Source: a virus
Strand: one strand, 5' to 3'
Length of the DNA: 22,243 nucleotides
IMG/VR virus record: IMGVR_UViG_3300021091_000462
Span: 1-22,243 of that record
Part shown: positions 2,942-17,304 of the stretch, in pieces
Layout of the letters: each line of letters starts with the position of its first letter
Position numbering within the stretch: the first letter of the stretch is position 1
The notes under the pieces: model-generated
Told to the model about the DNA's origin: nothing
What the model saw: only the letters and a program-made list of their open reading frames with translations
Databases searched by the model: none
Position numbers and translations under genes: made by a program

Positions 2942-2961
2942 CGTATATTTGGTATCTTAGT

Positions 2962-3363
2962 ATGCCACAATTAAAAGACTTCAAGGACATCAGTATTACA
3001 TTTGGCAAGCATCCAAACACCGCTGATGTCCTTGTCGTCAAGAATGAAAATGCTATTAAACAATCATTAATGAATTTAGTGAGCACATTAAAAGGAGAAA
3101 GACCTTTTAATTTTGAAATAGGCAGTCGTATTCAAAATTTATTATTTGAGAATATGGACTATGGTCTTGCTGCTATTATTGCAGAAGAAATACAAATGCT
3201 AATTTCAAATTACGAACCTCGCGTTATGTTAAGAGATGTTAGTGCAGTGCCAGATTATGATGCTAACTGTTATTCCATAGTATTAGAATATGTTATTCGA
3301 GGCAGAGAATTGCCAGATGACGGTGTAATCACGACGGAATTCTTTCTAGAGAGAACAAGATAA
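2962..3363 (+). CDS. 25: Baseplate wedge subunit gp25
   Basis: The 133-residue protein matches the GPW/gp25 family in length (T4 gp25 is 132 residues) and in key features. These are the N-terminal half ending LMNLVSTLKGERPFNFEIG at about residues 37-55, the conserved G-E-R-x-x-x-x-x-x-x-G turn, a helix with AAIIAEEIQMLISNYEPRV, and C-terminal strands. In T4, gp25 joins the sheath to the baseplate wedge and forms part of the wedge core with gp6 and gp53; the related pyocin and T6SS proteins (TssE) do the same job. It acts in the assembling virion. The gene is the first behind the late promoter and lies 3 bases before gp6. No strong Shine-Dalgarno precedes the ATG. Confidence 0.92.
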   Translation: MPQLKDFKDISITFGKHPNTADVLVVKNENAIKQSLMNLVSTLKGERPFNFEIGSRIQNLLFENMDYGLAAIIAEEIQMLISNYEPRVMLRDVSAVPDYDANCYSIVLEYVIRGRELPDDGVITTEFFLERTR

Positions 3364-3366
3364 GAA

Positions 3367-5169
3367 ATGCCATACGCTCAACTTAATCAATTAGATTTCA
3401 ATAATATTAAAGCATCACTAAAAGAGTATCTTAGAGCAAACAGTGAGTTTGATTCGTACGACTTCGAAGGCAGTGCTTTAAGTAATTTGCTTGATTTGTT
3501 AGCGTATAATACGTATTATACCGCATTCAATGCTAATCTAGTAGCAAATGAGATGTTTCTAGACTCTGCAACGTTACGAGATAACGTTGTAAGTATTGCA
3601 AAATCATTGGGATACACTCCAAAATCAGCTACATCAGCATTTACTGATTTAGACTTCAAAGTAAACTTTACTGGCACTGCTCCCGCAAGCATTAAAATAG
3701 AGCGTGGCACTGGATTCCTAAGCATTTTTGAGGATCAATCTTACACTTTTGTTACACTAGACGATATCAAGGCTCCAGTAAATAACGGTGTAGCACAATT
3801 TACGAATGCACGATTTCATGAAGGCACACTCATTACACAAACAATTACAGTAAATACCAATTTTCGCAATCAAAGATTCATTATTAACAATCAAGATATA
3901 GACTCTAGCACAATTAGAGTGCGTGTTTTTACTAGTACATACCCATCAGGCGCATTTGATTTGTATGAAATGTCGGATAACATTCTTAAAGTTACTCCAC
4001 AGTCGCGTGTTTTCTTTGTGCAAGAGATAGAAGATGAAAATTATGAGATTATTTTTGGTGATGGAGTGCTTGGTCAAAAATTACAAAACGGAAATGTTGT
4101 TGAAATCTCATATCTAGTGACAAACTCCGACGCACCAAACGGAGCAAAAATATTTTCATTTGCAGGAACGTTATCAGATAACAGTGGAATTAGCGCATAT
4201 ACAATGGCAATTTCAGATCTTACCGTAAAATCTCCCGCTACTGGTGGTGAAAAGATTGAAACAATGCGCTCCATTAAATTTAACGCAGCAAAAACCTTCG
4301 GATCTCAGAATAGAGCAGTTACAGCGGACGATTATAAATCAATTATTCACAAAATTTATCCCTCAATTGCAGATATTATTGTTTATGGTGGAGAAGAAGA
4401 GGATCCACCCGAGTTTGGAGTCGTAAAAATCGTAATAAAACCAAAATCAAGCGCATATTTGTCGAATAGTGTTAAAAAAAGCATTCAAAAATCGTTAAAA
4501 GAATACACAGTTGCTTCCGTAAACCCAAAAATTGTCGATCCTTCGATCATTTACGTCGAAATGTACTCGGATGTGTTTTTTAATCCAAGAAAAACGACAT
4601 ATAATAGTGAAAAAATCAAAGCATTGGTTATTTCAAGTCTAGAAAACTATATTTCAACGTCTGATACTGAAAAATTTAACGGAAAATTTAGATTTAGTAA
4701 GTTTATTAGCGTTATTGACGACGCGGATCAAGCAATTAATTCAAATTTGACGAAAATTCTCATGCGTAAGGATTTTTATCCCGCATTAAACTCAAAATTT
4801 TACTATGAAATTTGTTATAAAAATGAATTTGCGTATGATGATGTAGTTCCTTCTTTAACAAGCACTGGTTTTGTGGTTAGAGAGTTTCCAAACGACCAAG
4901 TATTTTTAGAAGATAGAGATGGCAAAATTGTCCTATATAAAGTGGATCCTCAAACTTCAAATAAAATTGTTTTAAACAAAAATCAAGGAGTTATGAATTA
5001 TAAAAAAGGAGAAATTCAATTGTATGATCTTATCATTATAAAAGGTAGTTTTTCTGATGATAAAATTGAATTACGAGTTACTCCTAAAGTACCTGATATT
5101 ATCTCAACCAGAGAGATGTATCTAGATGTAGATATTTCAAAAAGTCAATTTAACATTATCTCAGAGTAG
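3367..5169 (+). CDS. 6: Baseplate wedge subunit gp6 (Baseplate J-like)
   Basis: At 600 residues the protein is close to T4 gp6 (660). It has the typical start, with LDFNNIKASLKEYLRANSEF followed by FEGSALSNLLDLLAYNTYY at about residues 36-54, a mark of gp6/baseplate-J proteins. The middle holds TVKSPATGGEKIETMRSIKF and RAVTADDYKSIIHKIYPS (about residues 285-330), the conserved J-like core, and the C-terminus is beta-rich. In T4 twelve gp6 copies form the ring holding the wedges together and trigger the baseplate change on sheath contraction. It follows gp25 by 3 bases and precedes the giant protein by 6, so all are probably one transcript. The reading frame is intact. The assignment is firm; only the symbol is by analogy to T4. 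Confidence 0.92.
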   Translation: MPYAQLNQLDFNNIKASLKEYLRANSEFDSYDFEGSALSNLLDLLAYNTYYTAFNANLVANEMFLDSATLRDNVVSIAKSLGYTPKSATSAFTDLDFKVNFTGTAPASIKIERGTGFLSIFEDQSYTFVTLDDIKAPVNNGVAQFTNARFHEGTLITQTITVNTNFRNQRFIINNQDIDSSTIRVRVFTSTYPSGAFDLYEMSDNILKVTPQSRVFFVQEIEDENYEIIFGDGVLGQKLQNGNVVEISYLVTNSDAPNGAKIFSFAGTLSDNSGISAYTMAISDLTVKSPATGGEKIETMRSIKFNAAKTFGSQNRAVTADDYKSIIHKIYPSIADIIVYGGEEEDPPEFGVVKIVIKPKSSAYLSNSVKKSIQKSLKEYTVASVNPKIVDPSIIYVEMYSDVFFNPRKTTYNSEKIKALVISSLENYISTSDTEKFNGKFRFSKFISVIDDADQAINSNLTKILMRKDFYPALNSKFYYEICYKNEFAYDDVVPSLTSTGFVVREFPNDQVFLEDRDGKIVLYKVDPQTSNKIVLNKNQGVMNYKKGEIQLYDLIIIKGSFSDDKIELRVTPKVPDIISTREMYLDVDISKSQFNIISE

Positions 5170-5175
5170 GCATAA

Positions 5176-8100
5176 ATGTCGTCAATTAAGGCAAAAATCT
5201 CAGATCTGATTAACAGACAACTTCCTGCCTTCATTTCTTCGGAATATGAGGATTTTTCTAAGTTTGTACAAAAATATTACGAGCAACTTGAGCTTCCTGG
5301 GCAACCAGCAGACATTATACACAATTTACAAAAATATCGTGACATTGACACTTACGAAAAAGACCTACTTTCTGAAAATACCATTACAACCCTTGCAGTA
5401 ACTGCAACAACAACAAAAATTGACGTTGTTAGCACAAAATCATTCCCAGAAAAAAATGGATATGTGTTAATTGACGATGAAATCATTTTTTACAAATCTA
5501 AAACCGATACCACGTTTGAAAACTGTGTAAGAAACCTTAGTGGCACAACAAAACTTGGAGATTTGTATAATACTTCTAAATTTAAGTTTGTAGATACTTT
5601 AGATTACAATAAAGGTGTTGCTCATAGCTTAAGTAGTCAAGTTTTCAATATTAGTAATCTATTTTTATACGCTTTTGTTAAAAATTTTGAAACTGAGTAT
5701 CTTTATGCGTTTCCAGAAGAAAATTTAAAGACAACAGTAGATAAAAGAATACTTATTAAAAATATTAAGAAATTTTATCAATCAAAAGGCACCGATCAAT
5801 CAATTAAATTTATTTTCAATACTATTGTAAGCAAAACTGCTGATGATGTCCCCACCGTTACATATCCTAAAGAATCTGTTGTCAAATTATCAGAATCTGA
5901 TTGGATTGATAATTTTGCATTAAAGGTAAAAGTAATTTCTGGAAATCCAACAAAACTAGTTGGAGCTAAAATTGTACAATTCGAAGATTCTTACAATAGC
6001 AAGGTAAAAAATGCTTCTGCTACAATTGATCATGTAAAACCTATTGGCGTTTTTAATGGAGAGTCAATTTGGGAGATTACTTTAGATGAAAAGACTGTAG
6101 TTGGTGAGTTTTCTATTGCATCTAAAACATTTTTAACAAAATCTCTAAATGTAGGAGATTCCTATGCAAATGTTTATTCTACACTGGGATGGCAAGAAAA
6201 AACTAATAGATTTGTAATTGGCACAGAAACATTTACCTACACTCAAAAAAATATTAATCAATTTAAGATTGCTTCGCGTGACGGCAACAGTAATTACTCT
6301 GTAAACACTCCAGTTTATAGTTATAGCACTGTAACTGCTTCATATGTTGACACTGACAATATTGTTAGGTATGTAAAAATGTTGCCTTTCGGTATACTAT
6401 ATGATTTACAGGTAGACAACTCTTCACCATATACTACAGAAGGAGAGATCGTTACTCAAACGAAATCTGGGTTTACCTCATCAAATCCAATCGTTTTTGA
6501 TAAACTTTCTGGATCATATAGATGGTTAATTAACAACAACAACACTGCTCCTAGTATTCCATTGAATCCCACTGCTCAACAAGCAGTAGGTCAAAGTTTA
6601 GCAAATGTTTCAGCTTTGCTTGAGGATACTGATTATTTTTATATCGCATCATCTAGTTTTCCTTCATATTCAATTGGACCCTTTTCTTCTTTAGGTATAC
6701 CAGAAGATCAAAGACATCTTAAACTAATTAAGAAGATTCCTGCTAATTCTACAGAAACATATCCAACAAATACCTCTGATGTTGGTATTTTAATTAATGG
6801 TGTGCCAATTTATAGTTACAAAGATGAAGAAGACATCATTACTGGTAAAATAGAAAATATTTCGGTAACTAGTCAAGGAAGAGGATATCTTGCGGCGCCG
6901 TTTGTAATCAATAATAACGGTAATGCAATATTAGGCAGAGCAGTGCTTAGTGGTGAAGTGGTTGAAAAGATTTTACCAACGTCTCCTACTATTTTTACTG
7001 CCGATCCCACAGTTGTTATTACTTCTGGAAGAAATGCCATAGTTAGTGCAACTGTTACTCAAGGAAAGGTAACACAACTCAATATTTTAAATCCTGGCGA
7101 GTTTTATTCTTCTCCACCAACAATTATTATTAAAGACTCTTCTGGACAAGGCAGATCTGCAAGATATACTGCCAATATATCTAATGACGGAAAAATTGTA
7201 AGTTTCAATAAAGAAGACGAAGGAAAATTCTATGATCAATCTACAGTATCAGTAGAAGTGGTTGCGCGTGGGTCTGGTGCAACCGCAATCGCTAAAGTTA
7301 GAAGATGGAAGAAAAATAGATTTAAAAAACTCCAAACAGCATTAGATACTAATTATGGTTATTTGTATGAAAACCCAAATGAAGAAATCGGTTTGGGGTA
7401 TGCTCAATTAGCAAATCCAGTAAAGTTAAGAATTGCTATTCAAGATAATTTAAACAATACAGGAAATCTTAATACGGTTTTAACTCATTCAAAAATTGTT
7501 GGATATGCTTACGATGGTAATCCTATCTACGGTCCATATGCTTATCAAGATCCTTTAGATCAAACTACAGCAATTGTCAGAATGACAAGTAGTTATTCGC
7601 AAAATACTAGTAGAGTTGGCGGTCCTGCAATTTCAACATATCCACTGGGCATGTTTATAGATGATTTTAATTATACTCATAGATCTGGATCGTTAGACGA
7701 AAATAATGGTAGATTTTGTATCACTCCAGAATATCCTCAAGGCACATATGCTTATTTTGTTTCTGTAGATGCATCCGAGACTCCAGTCTTTCCATATGTC
7801 ATAGGAAAAAATTATTACTCTTTGCCCGTAGACGCAAACTACAATAAAAAAATTACGCAAGACAACATTCCTGTAAATGCAGTCAGACTAAGGGATAGCA
7901 ATACACCAAATAATGGAGAGGGATGCTCTGCATACATAGAAGAAATCAATCGCGGCAGTGTATCAGGAATTGATGTCCAAAATTCTCATAATAATTTTTC
8001 TGTTGGTAGTATTGTAGAAAGTAATTATACTAGCACGTTAGGATCTGGTATTGTTGCAAAAGTTTCTTCTATTAAGGGTAAACTAGTAGAATCTATTGAA

Positions 8101-11100
8101 TGTAAAACTACTTATACAGCTAGTTTAAATTTTCCAGCTGGATCTACATCTGCGTTTCCAGTATACATCAATAATGTTGGAGTGTTATTGGGCAACACAG
8201 TTGTTGTGCGTGTACCAGCCCCTAATTTTAATCTATCCAACTTTACCGTTTTGTTAAGAAATTCGCTTAATAATTTTACAATTCCGTCTACTTTATTTGC
8301 TTCTGCAATAGCATCTGCTAAAATCGTTACAGAATCAAATTGTTATCTTTTTGCTGGCGATACTTTAACTCAAGCAGGATCAAATGCTACTGGTCAAATA
8401 ATTGGTAATGTATTTAATGATAAAACGATTGTCTTAAGAAACATTAGTGGCGTATTCAATACTACTAATCTTTTATCATCAAATACAACAGTTTTAAATT
8501 TAATTTTAGATAAAACGTCATCGTTTACTAGCGGAAGTGTAGTTACTTTAACAAATGGTAACCAAGTAGTTATTTTAAATGTAACTGCAAACTTTTTATT
8601 CACTGCATTTACTCCATTTGAAAATGGAGATGCCATTATATTCTCTTCTTCGTTTACTGGGGTGTCTGCAAACGCAATTTATTATGTCGTGAATAAAACA
8701 GCAACCGCTTTTAGAATAGCAGCAACCCCTGGCGGCACTGCATTAACTATTCCAGACAATACTGCTCCATCAGCTTTTGCTATTAGTCAAAAAGCTAGAG
8801 GAGAGATTCTTGAGACTACTTTAAACTCCAACACATTAAAAGTAAAAGTAACTGCTGGAACTTTTGATACCGATCCTAATTGTTACATAGTTAGCTCAAC
8901 TGCTGTAGACACGGTAGGCAGTAAAATAATTCAAATTAATAGTTTAAGTAGTAATATATCAATTTATGATGTAGATGACAAGATTGCAATTGTAAAAACA
9001 TCTTCTTCGCATGGATTGACAATTAATGATGAGGTAAACATCGATATTATTCCAGATGATTTTGTATCGACCGTTTTACATTATGTAAGAAGAAGAATTT
9101 ATCAACGAATTGAATTAGACCCACCAGTATTCTCTTCAAACCTTAATGACAGTGGTGCAGCAAGAATAAAAATTCTTAATATGGGAGCGGATTACAATAA
9201 CGGCACATTTACATCAGAATTACTTTTTAAAGATCAAACAAAAACTAGAGCAGGGTTAGGGGTTGCTGGAAATGCCAATAATGCAAAGGTTTCCATTGTT
9301 GTGTCTTTTAATAGAGTTATTTCTCTAACGATAGTCAGTAAAGGAAAGGGATATAGAAAGGGAGACGAGTTGGTTTTGCCTGCCAACGCTGCTATTAGAT
9401 CATTAGCATCTACAAGCACTTCTATTTTTACTAGCATGGTAGAACATGCTGGATTTGGATCTAATGAATCTGGATTATTTTTAGACAATCTCGATGGATT
9501 GTCAATCAACGATCTTTTAAAGATTGATTCCGAGATTGTTAAAATTTCTGGCTTCGAGACTGTAGAGCCAGTTTGGACTGCTGGAGCAAACGTATATTTT
9601 GGAGAAAAATATTATTTTGGTAGTAATTTATATGTTGTTTCGCAATCTGGCACAACAGCAGCACCTGGACCCACTCACACATTAGGCGAGCAAGTAAATG
9701 GCACTGCGAAGTTTACTTATTTTAGCAAGGCGACGCAATATCTGTCGGTTATCAGGGCACAGTTAGGCACTACTGCTATCGATCATTATGATAATACTTT
9801 AGTTGATTTACATAATCCGACATATCGTTTTAACTCTGGATATCAACTTACTGGCGGATCTGCAGCTGGTTATCTATCCAGTTATGATTCCAGTAAGCAA
9901 ATTATGGAATTGTATTTTGATACCGCTAATACTTTACAAAATATTATAACCGTTGATGATAATAGTGTATTCTTTGATAATAGCACTCCAGCAAAAATTG
10001 TTTCGGTGAAAACAGTATTAAGTCCACCAGAATATAAATTTGAGTTTTCAAGAGGATCTAGTCTTGGTCCTTGGATTAAAAATCCAAACATTTATATTCA
10101 AAAATTCTATCGTTACAAATTTGATACTAGTCACTCTTCAATGATAGGAAGTTATTTGGAATTTTCTCCAAGTATTACGCAAAATATATTGGGAATTGAA
10201 ACCAAAAAAAGTATTGCGCTACCAGGATATTCTAATTCGTTTGTGGAAGTAAAAACGGGATTTGGTCCATTAACTTCAACAAACACATTTGCGAAAAAAC
10301 AAAACATTAGTTATAATTATCTATATTATTATGATAAGGCAAATCTAGCAAAATCAGACAATGCATATTTAGAATTGATTGAAGATCCTTTGCAAGGACT
10401 TAAAAAAGTTATCTATGTTACTGATAATAGATTTGTTTACAGTATTAAAGATTATCCTGTCTTTAATGGCACGGGTAATATTACTTATACTACTACATCT
10501 GTTTCAGCGATTGGTAAAATTGATAAAATTACTGTTTTTAATCCTGGTAATTCATTTACAGAATTACCAACTATCTTTGGTGTAAGACCATCACCAGCAC
10601 TAGAATGCATTGCTCAAGTAATTCATGATCCTCAAACTAAAAGAATTAACTCGGTAAAAATTATTAACCCTGGTGCTAATTATTCTCAACCAAAAGCAAT
10701 TTTGATATCTGGAGATGGTAAATTTGCAGAATTTGAAGTCTTTAAAAAATCGGATAATTCTATTTTATCCATCAACGTTATCAATAAAGGAATCGGGTAT
10801 ACATACAGACCAAATATTATAATAGTAGAGACTGATGTTAATGCATACTATGAATCAACTACTATCGGGGTGCCAAAGAAGATTCGTTTAGGATCTAATG
10901 GAAGTGCTTTCAATTTAGACAAAACAGTTTCTTCTAAATTTACAACAAAACAAATTTTGGTATTAAGTGACTTTGTAAAAAATTCTTTTGCAGTAAATGA
11001 AATCATAAAACAATATGAAGATAATTATATCATTGCAGTAGGAAAAATTGTTGATTATAAAAAAGATACAAATGTATTGAAAATAGAAGTTACTTCTGGA

Positions 11101-14100
11101 GTTTTCCAACCCAATTTAAATATTGTAGGAGAGAAAACAAATAGTGTTGCAAAAGTCAAAAAGATTCTTACAAATAATTTAAAATCTTCTATTAAATCAT
11201 ATTACGATAATCTGGGAGGATATGAATCTGAAAGAGGCATGTTAAACACCTCCTCACAAAGACTAGCAGATTCATATTTTTATCAAGATTATTCTTACGT
11301 AATTAAATCTAAATCTTCAATTAATAAATGGCGTAATTTAATCAAAGACACTATTCATCCAGCAGGATTTCAACTATTTGGTGAGTTGCTGGTAGAAAGT
11401 AAAGGTGATGTAAATATCAAACCGCAACAACCAAAATCAGACAGAATAAGTATTGTTCAGTTGTGGGATGAAACCAAAAACCGCATTACTGTAGAATCTC
11501 AATTAACAAGAAGACAAATTACTTCTGTTACATTAAACACACAAAATACGACCATTGAACAGGGCACGGGATCTGTGTTTGTAAGTGATTACAATACTAC
11601 AGAAACCAGAGCTTATGTTGTTTCTTTGTCTCCCGCATTTACAGGAGATTTTGATCAATCTGGAAATAGAAGTGGTAATAAAGTTTTTACAATGTTTCAA
11701 GCAAAACCAGCTGGATCATTTTTACCAACCACTCCTTTAGTAGTAGATAACCCACAAAATTTGATAATTACAATAGACGGAATATTGCAAGAGCCTGGAA
11801 AAGCATTTACTGTTTCAGGATCAACCATTACTTTTGCAGAAGCTCCATTGGGACCACGCACTGTATTGGGCGTGCCCGTGCAACAACAAAATTTTGTTGG
11901 TCGTTATATAGCATTTAAAAACAACACGTATAATAATCGTTATTTCAAAAAAATTAAACAAATTTCTCAAAATAGCGGACGATGGTTAGATGCAGCAGAT
12001 CAAATTGAAGTCAATCGTAATTTTATTATTGAAGAATCGTTTGCTTATTTGATTGACAAATATCCAACTACAATTATTCCGAATAGCACAAAATGTAAAA
12101 GAGATATTGGAATTATTTTGGATGCTATTTCGCATGATTTAAAATTTGGCGGGAATAAATCTATAGTTACTGCAGCACAGTCATATTATAATGGAAATTC
12201 GTTAGCATATGTAAATTTACAAAAAACAGAAACATTAGATGCGTTTAAATATGCTGCAAATGCAGCAATTGCTGCTACCAGAAACTGGGATATAAGTTTA
12301 AATAATTGTCAAACAGTTATAGGATCATCTACGGTTACTTTGCCGTCTACGGTGGGCATTATTAAAGGAATGAGAGTTAATGGGAAAGGCATACCATCTA
12401 ATTCAACATATCAAGCTGTTGTTTTTGACGTTCTTAACAGCACACAAATTGTTATTGGCATTCCGTCTTTATCTTCTAATGTTGTATCTACACAAAGTGG
12501 TAGTGTTACATCTCCAGTGCAAACTTCCATTATTTTACAAGACGGCACAATTCAAATTCTACCGCCCTCGGAAGTTGTATTACAAGATGGATCAACATTT
12601 ACTGCATTTGGAGCAATTGGTCCTGTGCCAGCTATTGCCACTTTTGCAAATACACAATTAACATTTTCGTTAAGTGGTATAAACAATGGCACCTTTTTTG
12701 ATGCCTCTGATCTAATTGAAAAAAATAGACAATATATCGTTGAAGAGTCATTTGGTTTCTTGAATTTTACATATCCTGGGTTTATAAATCCAAACGCAAT
12801 AAAATGCAAACGAGATATTGGAATTTTTATTGACTCTATTGTTTCAACATTACGTTTTGGCGGTAATATTAAAATGGTAGAATTTGGTGAATCTTATTAC
12901 ACTGGCAATTCTTTAGCATATATTAACATGCAAAAGACAGAAACTTTAGCGACATTTAATAAAGCTAAAGAGTTGGCAATTTTAGCGATGAGAAATCTAT
13001 TGCCTGCAGGACAATTCACTACCATTGCTCCAATAACAGATTTAACAATTAGCGTTGATACTGGAGTGCCTGCATGTGCATTAGTGGCATCTGCAATTAA
13101 TACTTCTTACGCCATAGTAGAAGATGTTATTAACAATGGACCAAATAGAATTGTTAAAGTCCAACAAAATCCAAATTTTCCTGGATTCTATACACCTATA
13201 AGGACCATCTCGAATCATTCAATAATAAGGAGCACAGAAGTCCCAGAATGTGCGTCGGTGGCAAATGCTATTACTACTTATTATACCATTTTGCAAAACA
13301 TTATTAACAATGGAGTAAATAGTGTTCCTATAATTAAACCAATATACTTTGATGGAGTGGAGACATCATTTAAATTATACTATGAAAATAATGCACCTGT
13401 TGAATTAGACAGCAAAGAAAACTTAATTATATCTTTGGATGGTGTGCTTCAAGAATCTCGCACCACTCCCACTATCCCAGCAAAAGCTGCTTACTATATC
13501 AACAAAACAGTTATACCAAATGAAATAGTATTCTTAACTGCTCCCGTAGCATATGATAATAGAAACTTCCAAAAATTCTTTGGTCTAACTGCAGGAAATT
13601 ATGAAAGATTAAAAATTGAAGAAAGTAGGATAACTGGCAACAGTAATGGACCCTTTTTAATGAGATCTGTTGTAACCAATAGAGCATTTACTGTATATGA
13701 TGATCGCAACGTATTAGTATTTGTTGATGGAGTACTTCAAATTAGAAATAAATCATATACAATTAATAATTCAAATATTACATTTAGTGAAAAATTAAAA
13801 GCGGGACAGAATGTTAATATTTTAGTATTGTATGGTAGAGATATCAATAAAACGTTAGAATTTTATAATTATGATCAAGATAGATATTTAAATAGAATAC
13901 AAATCACAGTATCTACTACATTTAATATTGAAAAAACATTTTCTAAAAAGTATGCTTTCCAAGGAGATACTTTGGGCACAGCATCTGCATTGGGAGAAAT
14001 TAAATCAATCAGAAAAAATGGACCGAATACTATTTTAATAGTAGAAACAGATAATAGACCGTTTGGTCCAGGTCAAATCAAATTATCTGGAATTACATAT

Positions 14101-15156
14101 AACAATAGTAATATTGTAATTAATGCAAATCAAGTTGTTTCTATTTCTGACTTTGTGCAAGATGAAGATAAGTTTGATATTTTAACTGAGACAAACGTAA
14201 ATTGGTTATATGATTCTGGCGAAAGAAAAGTATTCAATTTGGGGTTAAGTCCAGGAGATCAAATTAGAATTGATGGCGAAAGTGAGTTTCGTAGGATTCT
14301 AAGTATTCCAACAAATGCAAAGAAAATAGATTACTCAACCAAACTTTCCTATGCTAATATATTTAATGTAACAAATTACAACGAATATTTGTTTGGCGAG
14401 GGGTTAGATATTGTTGCTGAGATTAATCCTTTAAGTGGGGAAGTTGTGAAGTTAGTTTGGAATCAAAGAGATTATGGAAATGCATACGCTCCAATTTCAA
14501 ATACCTCTGGTTATTTAAAAGCACCAATATTAGAATTTATTTCACAAAGAGATGTGGATGTAGATGGAAATACTATAGGTGCTCCTACTGGCGGCGGGGC
14601 AGCTGGACACGTAATCATTGATAAACGCGGTGAAATTATTGATGTGGTATTAACAAATCCTGGAGGTGGGTATATTGTGCCGCCAAAAGTATCTATTAAC
14701 AGAGGATATCAAATCATTAAATCTGCAGAAAGAAAAATTTTTGAAAAACAAACTATACAAATTGAGCCAAAAATAAACTCTCCAATTTTTATTACTTCAA
14801 TAATTCAAGTAATAAAACCACCATCAACCATACCGCCAGTATTACTTAACCCATTTGGAAATGCTGGAGCAATTTCTTTCTCTGTTGATGTTACTAATTT
14901 TAGTCACATAACAGTAAATACTGCTATTGCTTCCTCAACGATAGACATTGTTGTGACAAAAAATCTATTGGCAAAATTAAACGCTTTAATGTTAAAACTG
15001 GCGGTTAATAGAAACATAAACTTAAATATTCCAACAGATGTAAAAGTTATTCCGTTTATTTCTAATAACATTCAATCAGTTGGTCCAGAAGTTGTTGCAA
15101 TCGGTTTGGTGCTTTGGAATCTAATAAATTTGCTTCAGATGAATATGCTCAAGTAA
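5176..15156 (+). CDS. Giant modular baseplate protein at the gp7 position, YHYH domain
   Basis: This 3326-residue protein occupies the place of gp7 (1032 residues in T4), the wedge initiator. The N-terminus (LPAFISSEYEDFSKFVQKYY, about residues 15-34; FYQSKGTDQSIKFIF, about 200-214) looks like the cyanophage wedge protein. Further modules by residue: a 'DDEIIFY' turn module (77-128); short beta repeats with N-P-G/GY signatures (near 559, 632, 1381, 1782, 1824, 1863, 3154); a YHYH domain (about 770-880, with YDGNPIYGPYAY and NGRFCITPEYPQGTYAYF); a phage module with YYVVNKTATAFRIAATPGG (about 1163-1187); a second turn module interrupted by a VYFGEKYYFGSNLYVV insert (about 1463-1518); three 'DGVLQ' modules; and two CKRDIG modules. 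It likely builds the wedge and adds surface-exposed, possibly receptor-contacting parts. The C-terminus appears cut by a frameshift near 15105, the true end probably being 15482. Symbol withheld because homology to T4 gp7 was not shown. Confidence 0.85.
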   Translation: MSSIKAKISDLINRQLPAFISSEYEDFSKFVQKYYEQLELPGQPADIIHNLQKYRDIDTYEKDLLSENTITTLAVTATTTKIDVVSTKSFPEKNGYVLIDDEIIFYKSKTDTTFENCVRNLSGTTKLGDLYNTSKFKFVDTLDYNKGVAHSLSSQVFNISNLFLYAFVKNFETEYLYAFPEENLKTTVDKRILIKNIKKFYQSKGTDQSIKFIFNTIVSKTADDVPTVTYPKESVVKLSESDWIDNFALKVKVISGNPTKLVGAKIVQFEDSYNSKVKNASATIDHVKPIGVFNGESIWEITLDEKTVVGEFSIASKTFLTKSLNVGDSYANVYSTLGWQEKTNRFVIGTETFTYTQKNINQFKIASRDGNSNYSVNTPVYSYSTVTASYVDTDNIVRYVKMLPFGILYDLQVDNSSPYTTEGEIVTQTKSGFTSSNPIVFDKLSGSYRWLINNNNTAPSIPLNPTAQQAVGQSLANVSALLEDTDYFYIASSSFPSYSIGPFSSLGIPEDQRHLKLIKKIPANSTETYPTNTSDVGILINGVPIYSYKDEEDIITGKIENISVTSQGRGYLAAPFVINNNGNAILGRAVLSGEVVEKILPTSPTIFTADPTVVITSGRNAIVSATVTQGKVTQLNILNPGEFYSSPPTIIIKDSSGQGRSARYTANISNDGKIVSFNKEDEGKFYDQSTVSVEVVARGSGATAIAKVRRWKKNRFKKLQTALDTNYGYLYENPNEEIGLGYAQLANPVKLRIAIQDNLNNTGNLNTVLTHSKIVGYAYDGNPIYGPYAYQDPLDQTTAIVRMTSSYSQNTSRVGGPAISTYPLGMFIDDFNYTHRSGSLDENNGRFCITPEYPQGTYAYFVSVDASETPVFPYVIGKNYYSLPVDANYNKKITQDNIPVNAVRLRDSNTPNNGEGCSAYIEEINRGSVSGIDVQNSHNNFSVGSIVESNYTSTLGSGIVAKVSSIKGKLVESIECKTTYTASLNFPAGSTSAFPVYINNVGVLLGNTVVVRVPAPNFNLSNFTVLLRNSLNNFTIPSTLFASAIASAKIVTESNCYLFAGDTLTQAGSNATGQIIGNVFNDKTIVLRNISGVFNTTNLLSSNTTVLNLILDKTSSFTSGSVVTLTNGNQVVILNVTANFLFTAFTPFENGDAIIFSSSFTGVSANAIYYVVNKTATAFRIAATPGGTALTIPDNTAPSAFAISQKARGEILETTLNSNTLKVKVTAGTFDTDPNCYIVSSTAVDTVGSKIIQINSLSSNISIYDVDDKIAIVKTSSSHGLTINDEVNIDIIPDDFVSTVLHYVRRRIYQRIELDPPVFSSNLNDSGAARIKILNMGADYNNGTFTSELLFKDQTKTRAGLGVAGNANNAKVSIVVSFNRVISLTIVSKGKGYRKGDELVLPANAAIRSLASTSTSIFTSMVEHAGFGSNESGLFLDNLDGLSINDLLKIDSEIVKISGFETVEPVWTAGANVYFGEKYYFGSNLYVVSQSGTTAAPGPTHTLGEQVNGTAKFTYFSKATQYLSVIRAQLGTTAIDHYDNTLVDLHNPTYRFNSGYQLTGGSAAGYLSSYDSSKQIMELYFDTANTLQNIITVDDNSVFFDNSTPAKIVSVKTVLSPPEYKFEFSRGSSLGPWIKNPNIYIQKFYRYKFDTSHSSMIGSYLEFSPSITQNILGIETKKSIALPGYSNSFVEVKTGFGPLTSTNTFAKKQNISYNYLYYYDKANLAKSDNAYLELIEDPLQGLKKVIYVTDNRFVYSIKDYPVFNGTGNITYTTTSVSAIGKIDKITVFNPGNSFTELPTIFGVRPSPALECIAQVIHDPQTKRINSVKIINPGANYSQPKAILISGDGKFAEFEVFKKSDNSILSINVINKGIGYTYRPNIIIVETDVNAYYESTTIGVPKKIRLGSNGSAFNLDKTVSSKFTTKQILVLSDFVKNSFAVNEIIKQYEDNYIIAVGKIVDYKKDTNVLKIEVTSGVFQPNLNIVGEKTNSVAKVKKILTNNLKSSIKSYYDNLGGYESERGMLNTSSQRLADSYFYQDYSYVIKSKSSINKWRNLIKDTIHPAGFQLFGELLVESKGDVNIKPQQPKSDRISIVQLWDETKNRITVESQLTRRQITSVTLNTQNTTIEQGTGSVFVSDYNTTETRAYVVSLSPAFTGDFDQSGNRSGNKVFTMFQAKPAGSFLPTTPLVVDNPQNLIITIDGILQEPGKAFTVSGSTITFAEAPLGPRTVLGVPVQQQNFVGRYIAFKNNTYNNRYFKKIKQISQNSGRWLDAADQIEVNRNFIIEESFAYLIDKYPTTIIPNSTKCKRDIGIILDAISHDLKFGGNKSIVTAAQSYYNGNSLAYVNLQKTETLDAFKYAANAAIAATRNWDISLNNCQTVIGSSTVTLPSTVGIIKGMRVNGKGIPSNSTYQAVVFDVLNSTQIVIGIPSLSSNVVSTQSGSVTSPVQTSIILQDGTIQILPPSEVVLQDGSTFTAFGAIGPVPAIATFANTQLTFSLSGINNGTFFDASDLIEKNRQYIVEESFGFLNFTYPGFINPNAIKCKRDIGIFIDSIVSTLRFGGNIKMVEFGESYYTGNSLAYINMQKTETLATFNKAKELAILAMRNLLPAGQFTTIAPITDLTISVDTGVPACALVASAINTSYAIVEDVINNGPNRIVKVQQNPNFPGFYTPIRTISNHSIIRSTEVPECASVANAITTYYTILQNIINNGVNSVPIIKPIYFDGVETSFKLYYENNAPVELDSKENLIISLDGVLQESRTTPTIPAKAAYYINKTVIPNEIVFLTAPVAYDNRNFQKFFGLTAGNYERLKIEESRITGNSNGPFLMRSVVTNRAFTVYDDRNVLVFVDGVLQIRNKSYTINNSNITFSEKLKAGQNVNILVLYGRDINKTLEFYNYDQDRYLNRIQITVSTTFNIEKTFSKKYAFQGDTLGTASALGEIKSIRKNGPNTILIVETDNRPFGPGQIKLSGITYNNSNIVINANQVVSISDFVQDEDKFDILTETNVNWLYDSGERKVFNLGLSPGDQIRIDGESEFRRILSIPTNAKKIDYSTKLSYANIFNVTNYNEYLFGEGLDIVAEINPLSGEVVKLVWNQRDYGNAYAPISNTSGYLKAPILEFISQRDVDVDGNTIGAPTGGGAAGHVIIDKRGEIIDVVLTNPGGGYIVPPKVSINRGYQIIKSAERKIFEKQTIQIEPKINSPIFITSIIQVIKPPSTIPPVLLNPFGNAGAISFSVDVTNFSHITVNTAIASSTIDIVVTKNLLAKLNALMLKLAVNRNINLNIPTDVKVIPFISNNIQSVGPEVVAIGLVLWNLINLLQMNMLK
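7489..7821 (+). other. YHYH domain within the giant protein
   Basis: Within the giant frame, the stretch IVGYAYDGNPIYGPYAY followed by YPLGMFIDDFNY, LDENNGRFCITPEYPQGTY and PVFPYVIGKNYY matches the YHYH domain family, found in bacterial surface proteins and cyanophage structural proteins. Its activity is unknown. It marks this protein as of cyanophage type. Confidence 0.8.
11980..12288 (+). repeat. CKRDIG module, copy 1 (giant gene)
   Basis: This 103-codon segment encodes LDAADQIEVNRNFIIEESF, KCKRDIGIILDAI, FGGN and YYNGNSLAYVNLQKTETL. It aligns without gaps to the segment at 12691-12999, with slightly over half of residues identical by eye. The pattern 'N-R-x-F/Y-I-x-E-E-S ... C-K-R-D-I-G ... 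G-G-N' recurs in cyanophage fibre-like proteins. Its function is unknown. Confidence 0.85.
12691..12999 (+). repeat. CKRDIG module, copy 2 (giant gene)
   Basis: Second copy of the 103-residue module, encoding FDASDLIEKNRQYIVEESF, KCKRDIGIFIDSI, FGGN and YYTGNSLAYINMQKTETL. It is in the same frame and of identical length to copy 1. About 400 bases of unrelated beta-rich sequence separate the two, so this is a dispersed rather than strictly tandem duplication. Confidence 0.85.
13051..13326 (+). repeat. Paired short helical repeats in the giant gene
   Basis: Two related segments follow the second CKRDIG copy: SVDTGVPACALVASAINTSY at 13051 onward and STEVPECASVANAITTYYTI at 13231 onward. Each continues as 'I-V/L-x-x-V/I-I-N-N-G' and contains one conserved cysteine (C-A) in the same position. 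Each unit is about 32-34 residues. They may be the C-terminal part of the CKRDIG module, duplicated. Confidence 0.75.
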
Positions 15157-15482
15157 GCGGATTGTCTATTTACGAATTCAATCAATTTTTCCCAACACTA
15201 ACAATTCAACAATTTAATGAATCGCCAAATCTTGTCAGTAGTATAAGCATTCCTTCTATCAATAATTATATGGCTTATCTTGATCAAGCACTTACAGAAT
15301 CTTCTTCAATTATCTACGTGCCATCAACAAGCAGGTTTGCTCCCTCTGGCAAATTATTAGTTGAAGACGAAATTGTAACTTATACAGGAAAATTAAGCGA
15401 TAGATTTACTGGCGTTACCCGAGGAGTAAATACAGTAGCAAAATCACATGCTGCTGGTGCTCTCTTGAGAACACTAGTTTAA
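15114..15482 (+). CDS. Displaced C-terminal end of the giant protein
   Basis: This frame lies at -1 relative to the giant gene and is open from 15069 to 15482. It has no ATG near its beginning and no Shine-Dalgarno; the first possible start is a TTG at 15114. It encodes LESNKFASDEYAQVSGLSI, then a 'turn module' with YVPSTSRFAPSGKLLVEDEI and FTGVTRGVNTVAKSHAAGAL (about the last 60 residues), the same module type seen twice inside the giant protein. A -1 shift at about 15105 would join the two into one protein of about 3,450 residues. The best reading is that it is the true C-terminus of the giant protein, cut off by a one-base deletion or sequencing error in GGTTTGG. An independent gene is less likely. 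Confidence 0.7.
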   Translation: MESNKFASDEYAQVSGLSIYEFNQFFPTLTIQQFNESPNLVSSISIPSINNYMAYLDQALTESSSIIYVPSTSRFAPSGKLLVEDEIVTYTGKLSDRFTGVTRGVNTVAKSHAAGALLRTLV

Positions 15483-15537: not shown

Positions 15538-17304
15538 ATGGCGGCTATTATTTCAGAAAAGTTTAGAATTTTTAATGCGAAACAATTCTTAGAATCTTTA
15601 TCTGAGCCTAGTGGTGGCTCTGATACTTCTCTCGAAAGGACAAGAAGCTACTTCTTTGTTGGTAGACCACAAAAATGGTTTGCGTATCTAGAATTATACG
15701 CGCCAAATGCAACTGCATTTACTGTTGGCGAATTTGCATATGTTGGCACTAATTTAGCATCTGCAACGTTTAAAGCGAAGGTTGCCGCCGTTTATCCTTC
15801 AAGTATTCTTTTGCAAGATGTGTTGCCAACGATTACATCTAGTCCTGCACTTGGTGCTTTAGTAAAAGGTAATGACAGTGGCGCTCAAGCATACGCTGGT
15901 GTATATAGATATGCTAACGAAGATCAACCATCAATACCTTTAGATAACCAAGAAGAAGACAAAGCATCTTATGATGATATGATTGCGCTTAAGCGCATTA
16001 CTTCTGGTCAAGCAAGACATGTCGCAAAGCGTATTACATATACTGCTAATACTAAGTATGATATGTGGAAACCAGATTATTCCGCAGTAAAGCAAACAGC
16101 TACATCTCAAAATAGTTTAGCAACAGCAAAATATTACTTAGTTAATTCAAATTACGAAGTATTTGTGTGTTTATATAATGGAGAAAGTCCTGCCAATCTA
16201 ACAGGTGTTAATTCAGTAAATGAGCCTTTGAAAACACCTCCTGTAGGTGCTGGCACATATAATCCAACTACAAGAATTTTTAAAGAGCAAACTGGACCAT
16301 ATATTTGGCGTTTTTTATATACAATTCCTACTAATGATGTAATTAAGTTTTTATCCACCGATTTCATGCCAATTATTGATGATCCAACGGAGCAAGCAGC
16401 AGCAGTAAATGGGGCAATTAGTGTTTTACTCATAAAAGATACGGGAGCATCTTTACCCGCTGCACAAACGTTATACGCACCAATTATTGGTGATGGCACG
16501 GGTGGTGTTGCAAAATTAACAACCACTGCTGGTGCTATTCTTCTTTCCGCCGAAGTGGAAACAGCGGGGTCTAATTATACATATGGCAATATCTTAGTTA
16601 GCAATGGATATCTTTTTAGCGACGCTACGTTAAATACTCCAGTAACTTCAACTAACGCAAAAGCATCAATTGAAGTAATCATTCCGCCAAAAGGAGGTCA
16701 CGCCAAAGATCCAGTAATGGAATTAAACGCAAAACGTGTGATGCTAAATGTGCGTTTAACTTACGCAGAAGGAGATGGAGATTTCCCTGTAGATAATGAT
16801 TTTAGAAGAATTGGCATTGTGCAAGATCCACAAAAAGCAGACGGAAGTTTAGCAGTTAGCGATACTCTATCTGCTTTATATGCAGTAAGAGTAAATAATG
16901 CAACTGGTAATTTTGTATCCGATGAAGAAATTAAACAGAATGTAGGCACCAATGCAGCTCCTCAATTTGCATATGGCACTGTTGTTTCATGGACACCAGA
17001 CACTCCTGGAGCAACCACTGGAATTTTAAAATATATTCAATCATCAGATTTGCATACAGATAAGGGAAAAGTTTATGATTTTGTTTCTGATGCTTCTAAA
17101 GCTATCATCGCTACAGTTTCTACTGTGCAAGCAAATGTAGTAACAAGTTACGCCGCTACTCTTTTGGGATCTACTTTTGCTGCTGGATTGGCACTTCCAG
17201 AAGTTAAAAAATATTCTGGAGATATTATTTACTCTGAAAACAGAAAATTAATTAGTAGAGCACCAGATCAAATTGAGGATATTAAATTAGTTATCGAATT
17301 CTAA
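15538..17304 (+). CDS. 8: Baseplate wedge subunit gp8, enlarged
   Basis: The protein keeps the gp8 landmarks in order: an N-terminal KFRIFNAKQFLESL (about 8-21), YFFVGRPQKW (38-47), DDMIALKRI with VAKRITYT (about 147-170), YYLVNSNYEVFVCLYN (about 200), GPYIWRFLYTIP (about 253-264), FRRIGIVQDPQ (about 422-432), and a C-terminus SGDIIYSENRKLI...IEF. These parallel the T4 gp8 segments GYVWEYLFEIP, FRQISIITNPL and SGEMIYMENR. T4 gp8 is 334 residues, this one 588; the extra length sits mainly between about 65-125 and 275-400, both beta-rich, the second with a GSNYTYGN motif like the repeats in its neighbours. In T4, gp8 is a dimer on the wedge, binding gp7 and gp10. It follows a doubled late promoter; a GAGAG lies near the start. 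Confidence 0.88.
   Translation: MAAIISEKFRIFNAKQFLESLSEPSGGSDTSLERTRSYFFVGRPQKWFAYLELYAPNATAFTVGEFAYVGTNLASATFKAKVAAVYPSSILLQDVLPTITSSPALGALVKGNDSGAQAYAGVYRYANEDQPSIPLDNQEEDKASYDDMIALKRITSGQARHVAKRITYTANTKYDMWKPDYSAVKQTATSQNSLATAKYYLVNSNYEVFVCLYNGESPANLTGVNSVNEPLKTPPVGAGTYNPTTRIFKEQTGPYIWRFLYTIPTNDVIKFLSTDFMPIIDDPTEQAAAVNGAISVLLIKDTGASLPAAQTLYAPIIGDGTGGVAKLTTTAGAILLSAEVETAGSNYTYGNILVSNGYLFSDATLNTPVTSTNAKASIEVIIPPKGGHAKDPVMELNAKRVMLNVRLTYAEGDGDFPVDNDFRRIGIVQDPQKADGSLAVSDTLSALYAVRVNNATGNFVSDEEIKQNVGTNAAPQFAYGTVVSWTPDTPGATTGILKYIQSSDLHTDKGKVYDFVSDASKAIIATVSTVQANVVTSYAATLLGSTFAAGLALPEVKKYSGDIIYSENRKLISRAPDQIEDIKLVIEF

Follow-up and report, generated by a model that had tools for sequence, protein, structure and literature searches.

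A sporadic frame break as the probable cause of an out-of-frame terminal unit in the giant baseplate gene of a T4-like virus contig

The last coding unit of a giant baseplate gene lies out of frame in the DNA analysed here (the window), a 22,243-base IMG/VR virus record that is a fragment of a T4-like, Kyanoviridae-type (cyanophage-type) phage. The giant open reading frame (ORF) ends early, and the C-terminal unit of its homologs follows in the -1 frame. This arrangement very probably reflects a sporadic frame break in a known baseplate gene, caused either by faulty assembly or sequencing or by a private mutation. Relatives have a continuous ORF, homology is found on both sides of the break, the spacing from stop codon to gp8 matches, and the break is conserved nowhere; from these observations we infer the sporadic nature of the cause. 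The finding is an ordinary one and involves no new gene-expression trick.

The window encodes, in order, gp25, gp6, the giant virion or baseplate ORF, gp8, and a DUF4815 protein (Table 1). The giant ORF, 3326 amino acids in length, matches phrog_4406 over most of its length (E=0, 2678 bits). It is located between gp6 and gp8, where a member of that family is expected, in the slot of T4 gene 7. Relatives encode the protein, terminal unit included, as one uninterrupted ORF; in the window, a stop codon at 15156 intervenes and the unit is in the -1 frame.

Table 1. Coordinates of the genes and of the features around the frame break, in window positions
Feature	Position	Strand	Evidence or remark
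gp25	2962-3363		profile matches
gp6 baseplate wedge subunit	3367..5169	+	profile matches
Giant baseplate-wedge/virion structural ORF, phrog_4406 family	5176..15156	+	profile match, S-CAM1/S-CAM3-like gene order
Interval obliged to contain the break	15069..15108	+	-1-frame stops 15063/15066; profile HMM and codon-usage join scoring
-1-frame terminal unit, homolog of the C-terminus of relatives' giant proteins	15099..15482	+	127 aa plus stop; homology
Main-frame tail past the break (LVLWNLINLLQMNMLK), out of frame	15106..15156	+	without homology; codon usage differs from the rest
A AAT TTG, a heptamer of the X XXY YYZ type in the right frame; considered non-functional	15126..15132	+	join scoring, folding, background count
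gp8 baseplate wedge subunit	15538..17304	+	profile matches
DUF4815 protein	17337 to window end		

Several internal segments of the giant protein were also recognized. A YHYH domain (PF14240, E=6e-27) occupies residues 769-866, encoded at 7480-7773. Two similar tail-fibre-like segments, with the pattern NSLAYxNxQKTETLxxF, are encoded at about 11935-12160 and 12680-12950, in a region that matches phrog_4527 and phrog_5342; a Pfam phycobilisome match in the same region falls under the cut-off and is probably spurious.

The -1 frame has stops at 15063 and 15066 and is then open from 15069 to a stop codon at 15480-15482. Its translation matches phrog_4406 at profile positions 2908-2991 of 3231 (E=4.2e-23) and, by tblastn, 221 phage records. 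Against a profile built without the window, the main frame scores 99 bits and the -1 frame 136 bits, as successive parts of one profile. A codon-usage model trained on the remainder of the window favors the main frame at first and the -1 frame later, with a single switch at about 15100, inside 15061-15180. The -1 frame is thus truly coding, and the frame break is real in the sequence as given, far beyond chance. A reading made from the letters alone, the sequence-only reading, had described both the unconvincing main-frame tail that ends at 15156 and the frame open to 15482, and both are as it described them. It also held that the terminal unit is a module found twice earlier in the same protein; the copy at residues 71-125 stands (23.3 bits, against a best score of 5.9 from 200 shuffles), but the one at residues 319-368 scores 2.1 bits, inside the shuffle range.

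A single break must lie after 15063 and 15066, the positions of the final two stops before the -1 frame opens. To place it, read-through proteins with every join position were scored against profiles that exclude the window's own sequence. On a 14-relative profile, joins at 15069-15099 score 221-224 bits, a join at 15105 scores 216.5, and one at 15132 scores 210.3; two further profiles rank the joins in the same order. Joins no later than 15099 are preferred over 15105 by about 6-7 bits, owing to an N-R-F in the -1 frame at 15099-15107 that agrees with relatives. The alignment is ungapped from 15099 (NRFGALESNKF in the window, aligned with NRFEVYENIKF), and the NRF...ExxKF stretch that begins there matches LGNRFEVYENIKF. 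Codon usage has its optimum at 15105, with 15099 lower by 3.7 nats and 15132 lower by 7.3 nats. Summing the two measures leaves little difference between 15099 and 15105 and puts 15132 about 12 nats behind, so the break most likely lies within 15096-15108. The proposal that one T is re-read at 15105 is therefore allowed, being the codon-usage optimum, but it is not unique, with 15099 nearly equal in summed score. A small indel is likewise supported, while the evidence that a T was lost from a run of Ts is weak. The longest homopolymer within 15069-15108 measures three bases.

More than 100 relatives read the terminal unit in the frame of the giant ORF. The sequence-only reading had proposed homologs across the join as a check, and nearly all relatives read the unit in this way. 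Among these are S-CAM1, S-CAM3, AG-345-P14, Sf-FR1, S-WAM2, ACG-2014e, and S-B43, in which the giant ORF stops 52-60 nt before gp8; the -1-frame stop in the window precedes gp8 by 55 nt. A scan of IMG/VR by gp8 alignment returned 80 loci. In 75 of these the unit precedes gp8, and for 74 of the 75 it is in frame with upstream sequence as far as the data reach, the exception (L067) being cut at a contig edge. A second scan, with the unit as query, gave another set of 80 loci (67 distinct), overlapping the first in some contigs, and each of them reads in frame over the available DNA. A break at the window's position is absent from every relative and locus examined in both scans.

No relative above about 60% identity was found, so there is no direct view of the ancestral sequence at this site. 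Exact peptide and DNA pattern searches for near relatives found none in IMG/VR or GTDB contigs, and the sole megablast match to phages is a 63-nt stretch where gp8 begins. One further locus, L002, was rejected as a spurious match; it falls in another kind of gene, which by eye resembles a terminase. Some terminal units carry insertions. In L080:2709-3944 and L081:2700-3944, a couple of hundred residues split the unit between DRFTGVxRG and HNAGDYLRS, and the inserted sequence holds YxLxTPWDITTASY-type repeats that appear propeller-like by eye. The unit of L076 has a shorter insertion, of about 60 amino acids.

In the ancestral state, then, one ORF extending to 15482 would have encoded the whole giant baseplate protein. 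A small sporadic indel at about 15096-15108 (outer limits 15069-15108) would have put the last 127 or so residues out of frame and led to the premature stop. Frame breaks occur elsewhere in the same giant gene in two other IMG/VR contigs. In L042 (break at 2572-2635), homology is found on either side of the break without interruption, and the first 80 codons of the second ORF include no start codon; in L049, the break (2960-3143) is near the end of the gene. Sporadic breaks in such contigs therefore appear not to be rare, at the per-cent level. A literature search on frame breaks in viral contigs returned no match. Our guess, at somewhat better than even chances, is that an assembly or sequencing error rather than a real mutation of the phage is responsible, since a truncated conserved baseplate protein in a dominant phage genotype would be unexpected. 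Against an error, the interval contains no long homopolymer, so the usual cause is not obvious. A real, lineage-specific change of frame, after which slippage or re-initiation would still yield a little of the terminal unit, in an early stage of an S-PM2-type fission, is very improbable.

That type of fission is natural. In S-PM2, S-RIM44, and S-H9-2, the equivalent unit is encoded by a separate gene of about 176 amino acids with its own ATG, abutting or overlapping the stop of the giant ORF (L008:13631-14158, L007:14854-15384, and L010:13879-14409, respectively), which represents gene fission, or fusion, at a domain border. Three isolates thus show that phages tolerate a split close to this point, and the terminal unit of the window might be a gene of its own in the same way. 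The -1 frame of the window, however, has no ATG, GTG, or TTG from 15069 until a TTG at 15114, and no Shine-Dalgarno-like sequence precedes that TTG, which makes a separate gene very unlikely. Initiation at 15114 would also cut into the conserved N-R-F...E..K-F stretch, and the next ATG in the frame is not reached until about 15268. The separate genes encode 44-48 residues ahead of the unit, where the window has about ten.

Programmed -1 ribosomal frameshifting, well known in phages and bacteria from dnaX and the tail assembly chaperones, could in principle yield two products, one short and the other longer by fusion, that differ by one whole unit. The sequence-only reading was right that GGTTTGG is non-canonical, but the overlap contains a canonical heptamer that it missed, A AAT TTG, in the right frame and the only X XXY YYZ heptamer in 15069-15156. 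Such heptamers number 38 in the 3324 codons of the giant gene, so that 0.33 is expected in the 29-codon overlap and its presence is no more than chance would give. By both homology and codon usage, the -1 frame is already in use upstream of it, from about 15099-15105, and a join at 15132 loses 12-13 bits against 15099 by profile, as well as the codon-usage support noted above. The RNA downstream folds no better than shuffled sequences (z = 0.9 and 0.1), leaving no stimulator, and no relative keeps either an overlap or a break at this place. Frameshifting here is highly improbable, and the earlier preference for an indel is borne out, since nearly all relatives read the unit in the frame of the giant ORF. 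Also highly improbable is a chimeric assembly, with fragments of two strains joined out of frame in a variable linker: the linker just upstream of the break (14843-15098) has no detectable homolog and cannot be aligned to relatives, but the two sides do not differ in codon usage, and across the join the domains follow in the order and at the spacing expected.

For annotation, the terminal unit should be assigned to the giant baseplate protein; it is neither a separate gene nor evidence of recoding. More generally, where giant genes in metagenome-derived virus contigs show frame breaks, relatives should be compared before programmed frameshifting is invoked.

Among known systems, programmed -1 frameshift genes such as dnaX and those for tail assembly chaperones share with the window overlapping -1 frames and an X XXY YYZ heptamer, but in the window homology is restored before the heptamer is reached, and the heptamer has neither stimulator nor conservation. 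The small virion protein of PHROG 9689 (S-PM2p085 and its S-RIM44 and S-H9-2 equivalents) likewise places the terminal unit between the giant gene and gp8, but it starts from its own ATG, located where the giant gene stops, and has a leading stretch of residues; the -1 ORF of the window has neither. The PHROG 4406 proteins, such as C030809_087 of S-CAM1 and T040910_085 of S-CAM3, resemble the window in the order gp25-gp6-giant-gp8, in a length of some 3000 amino acids or more, in a terminal unit of the form YVPxTxxFPxSGKLLxGxExxxYTGKLxDRFxGVTRG, and in a stop about 55 nt before gp8; the window differs from them in having that unit one frame off the rest.
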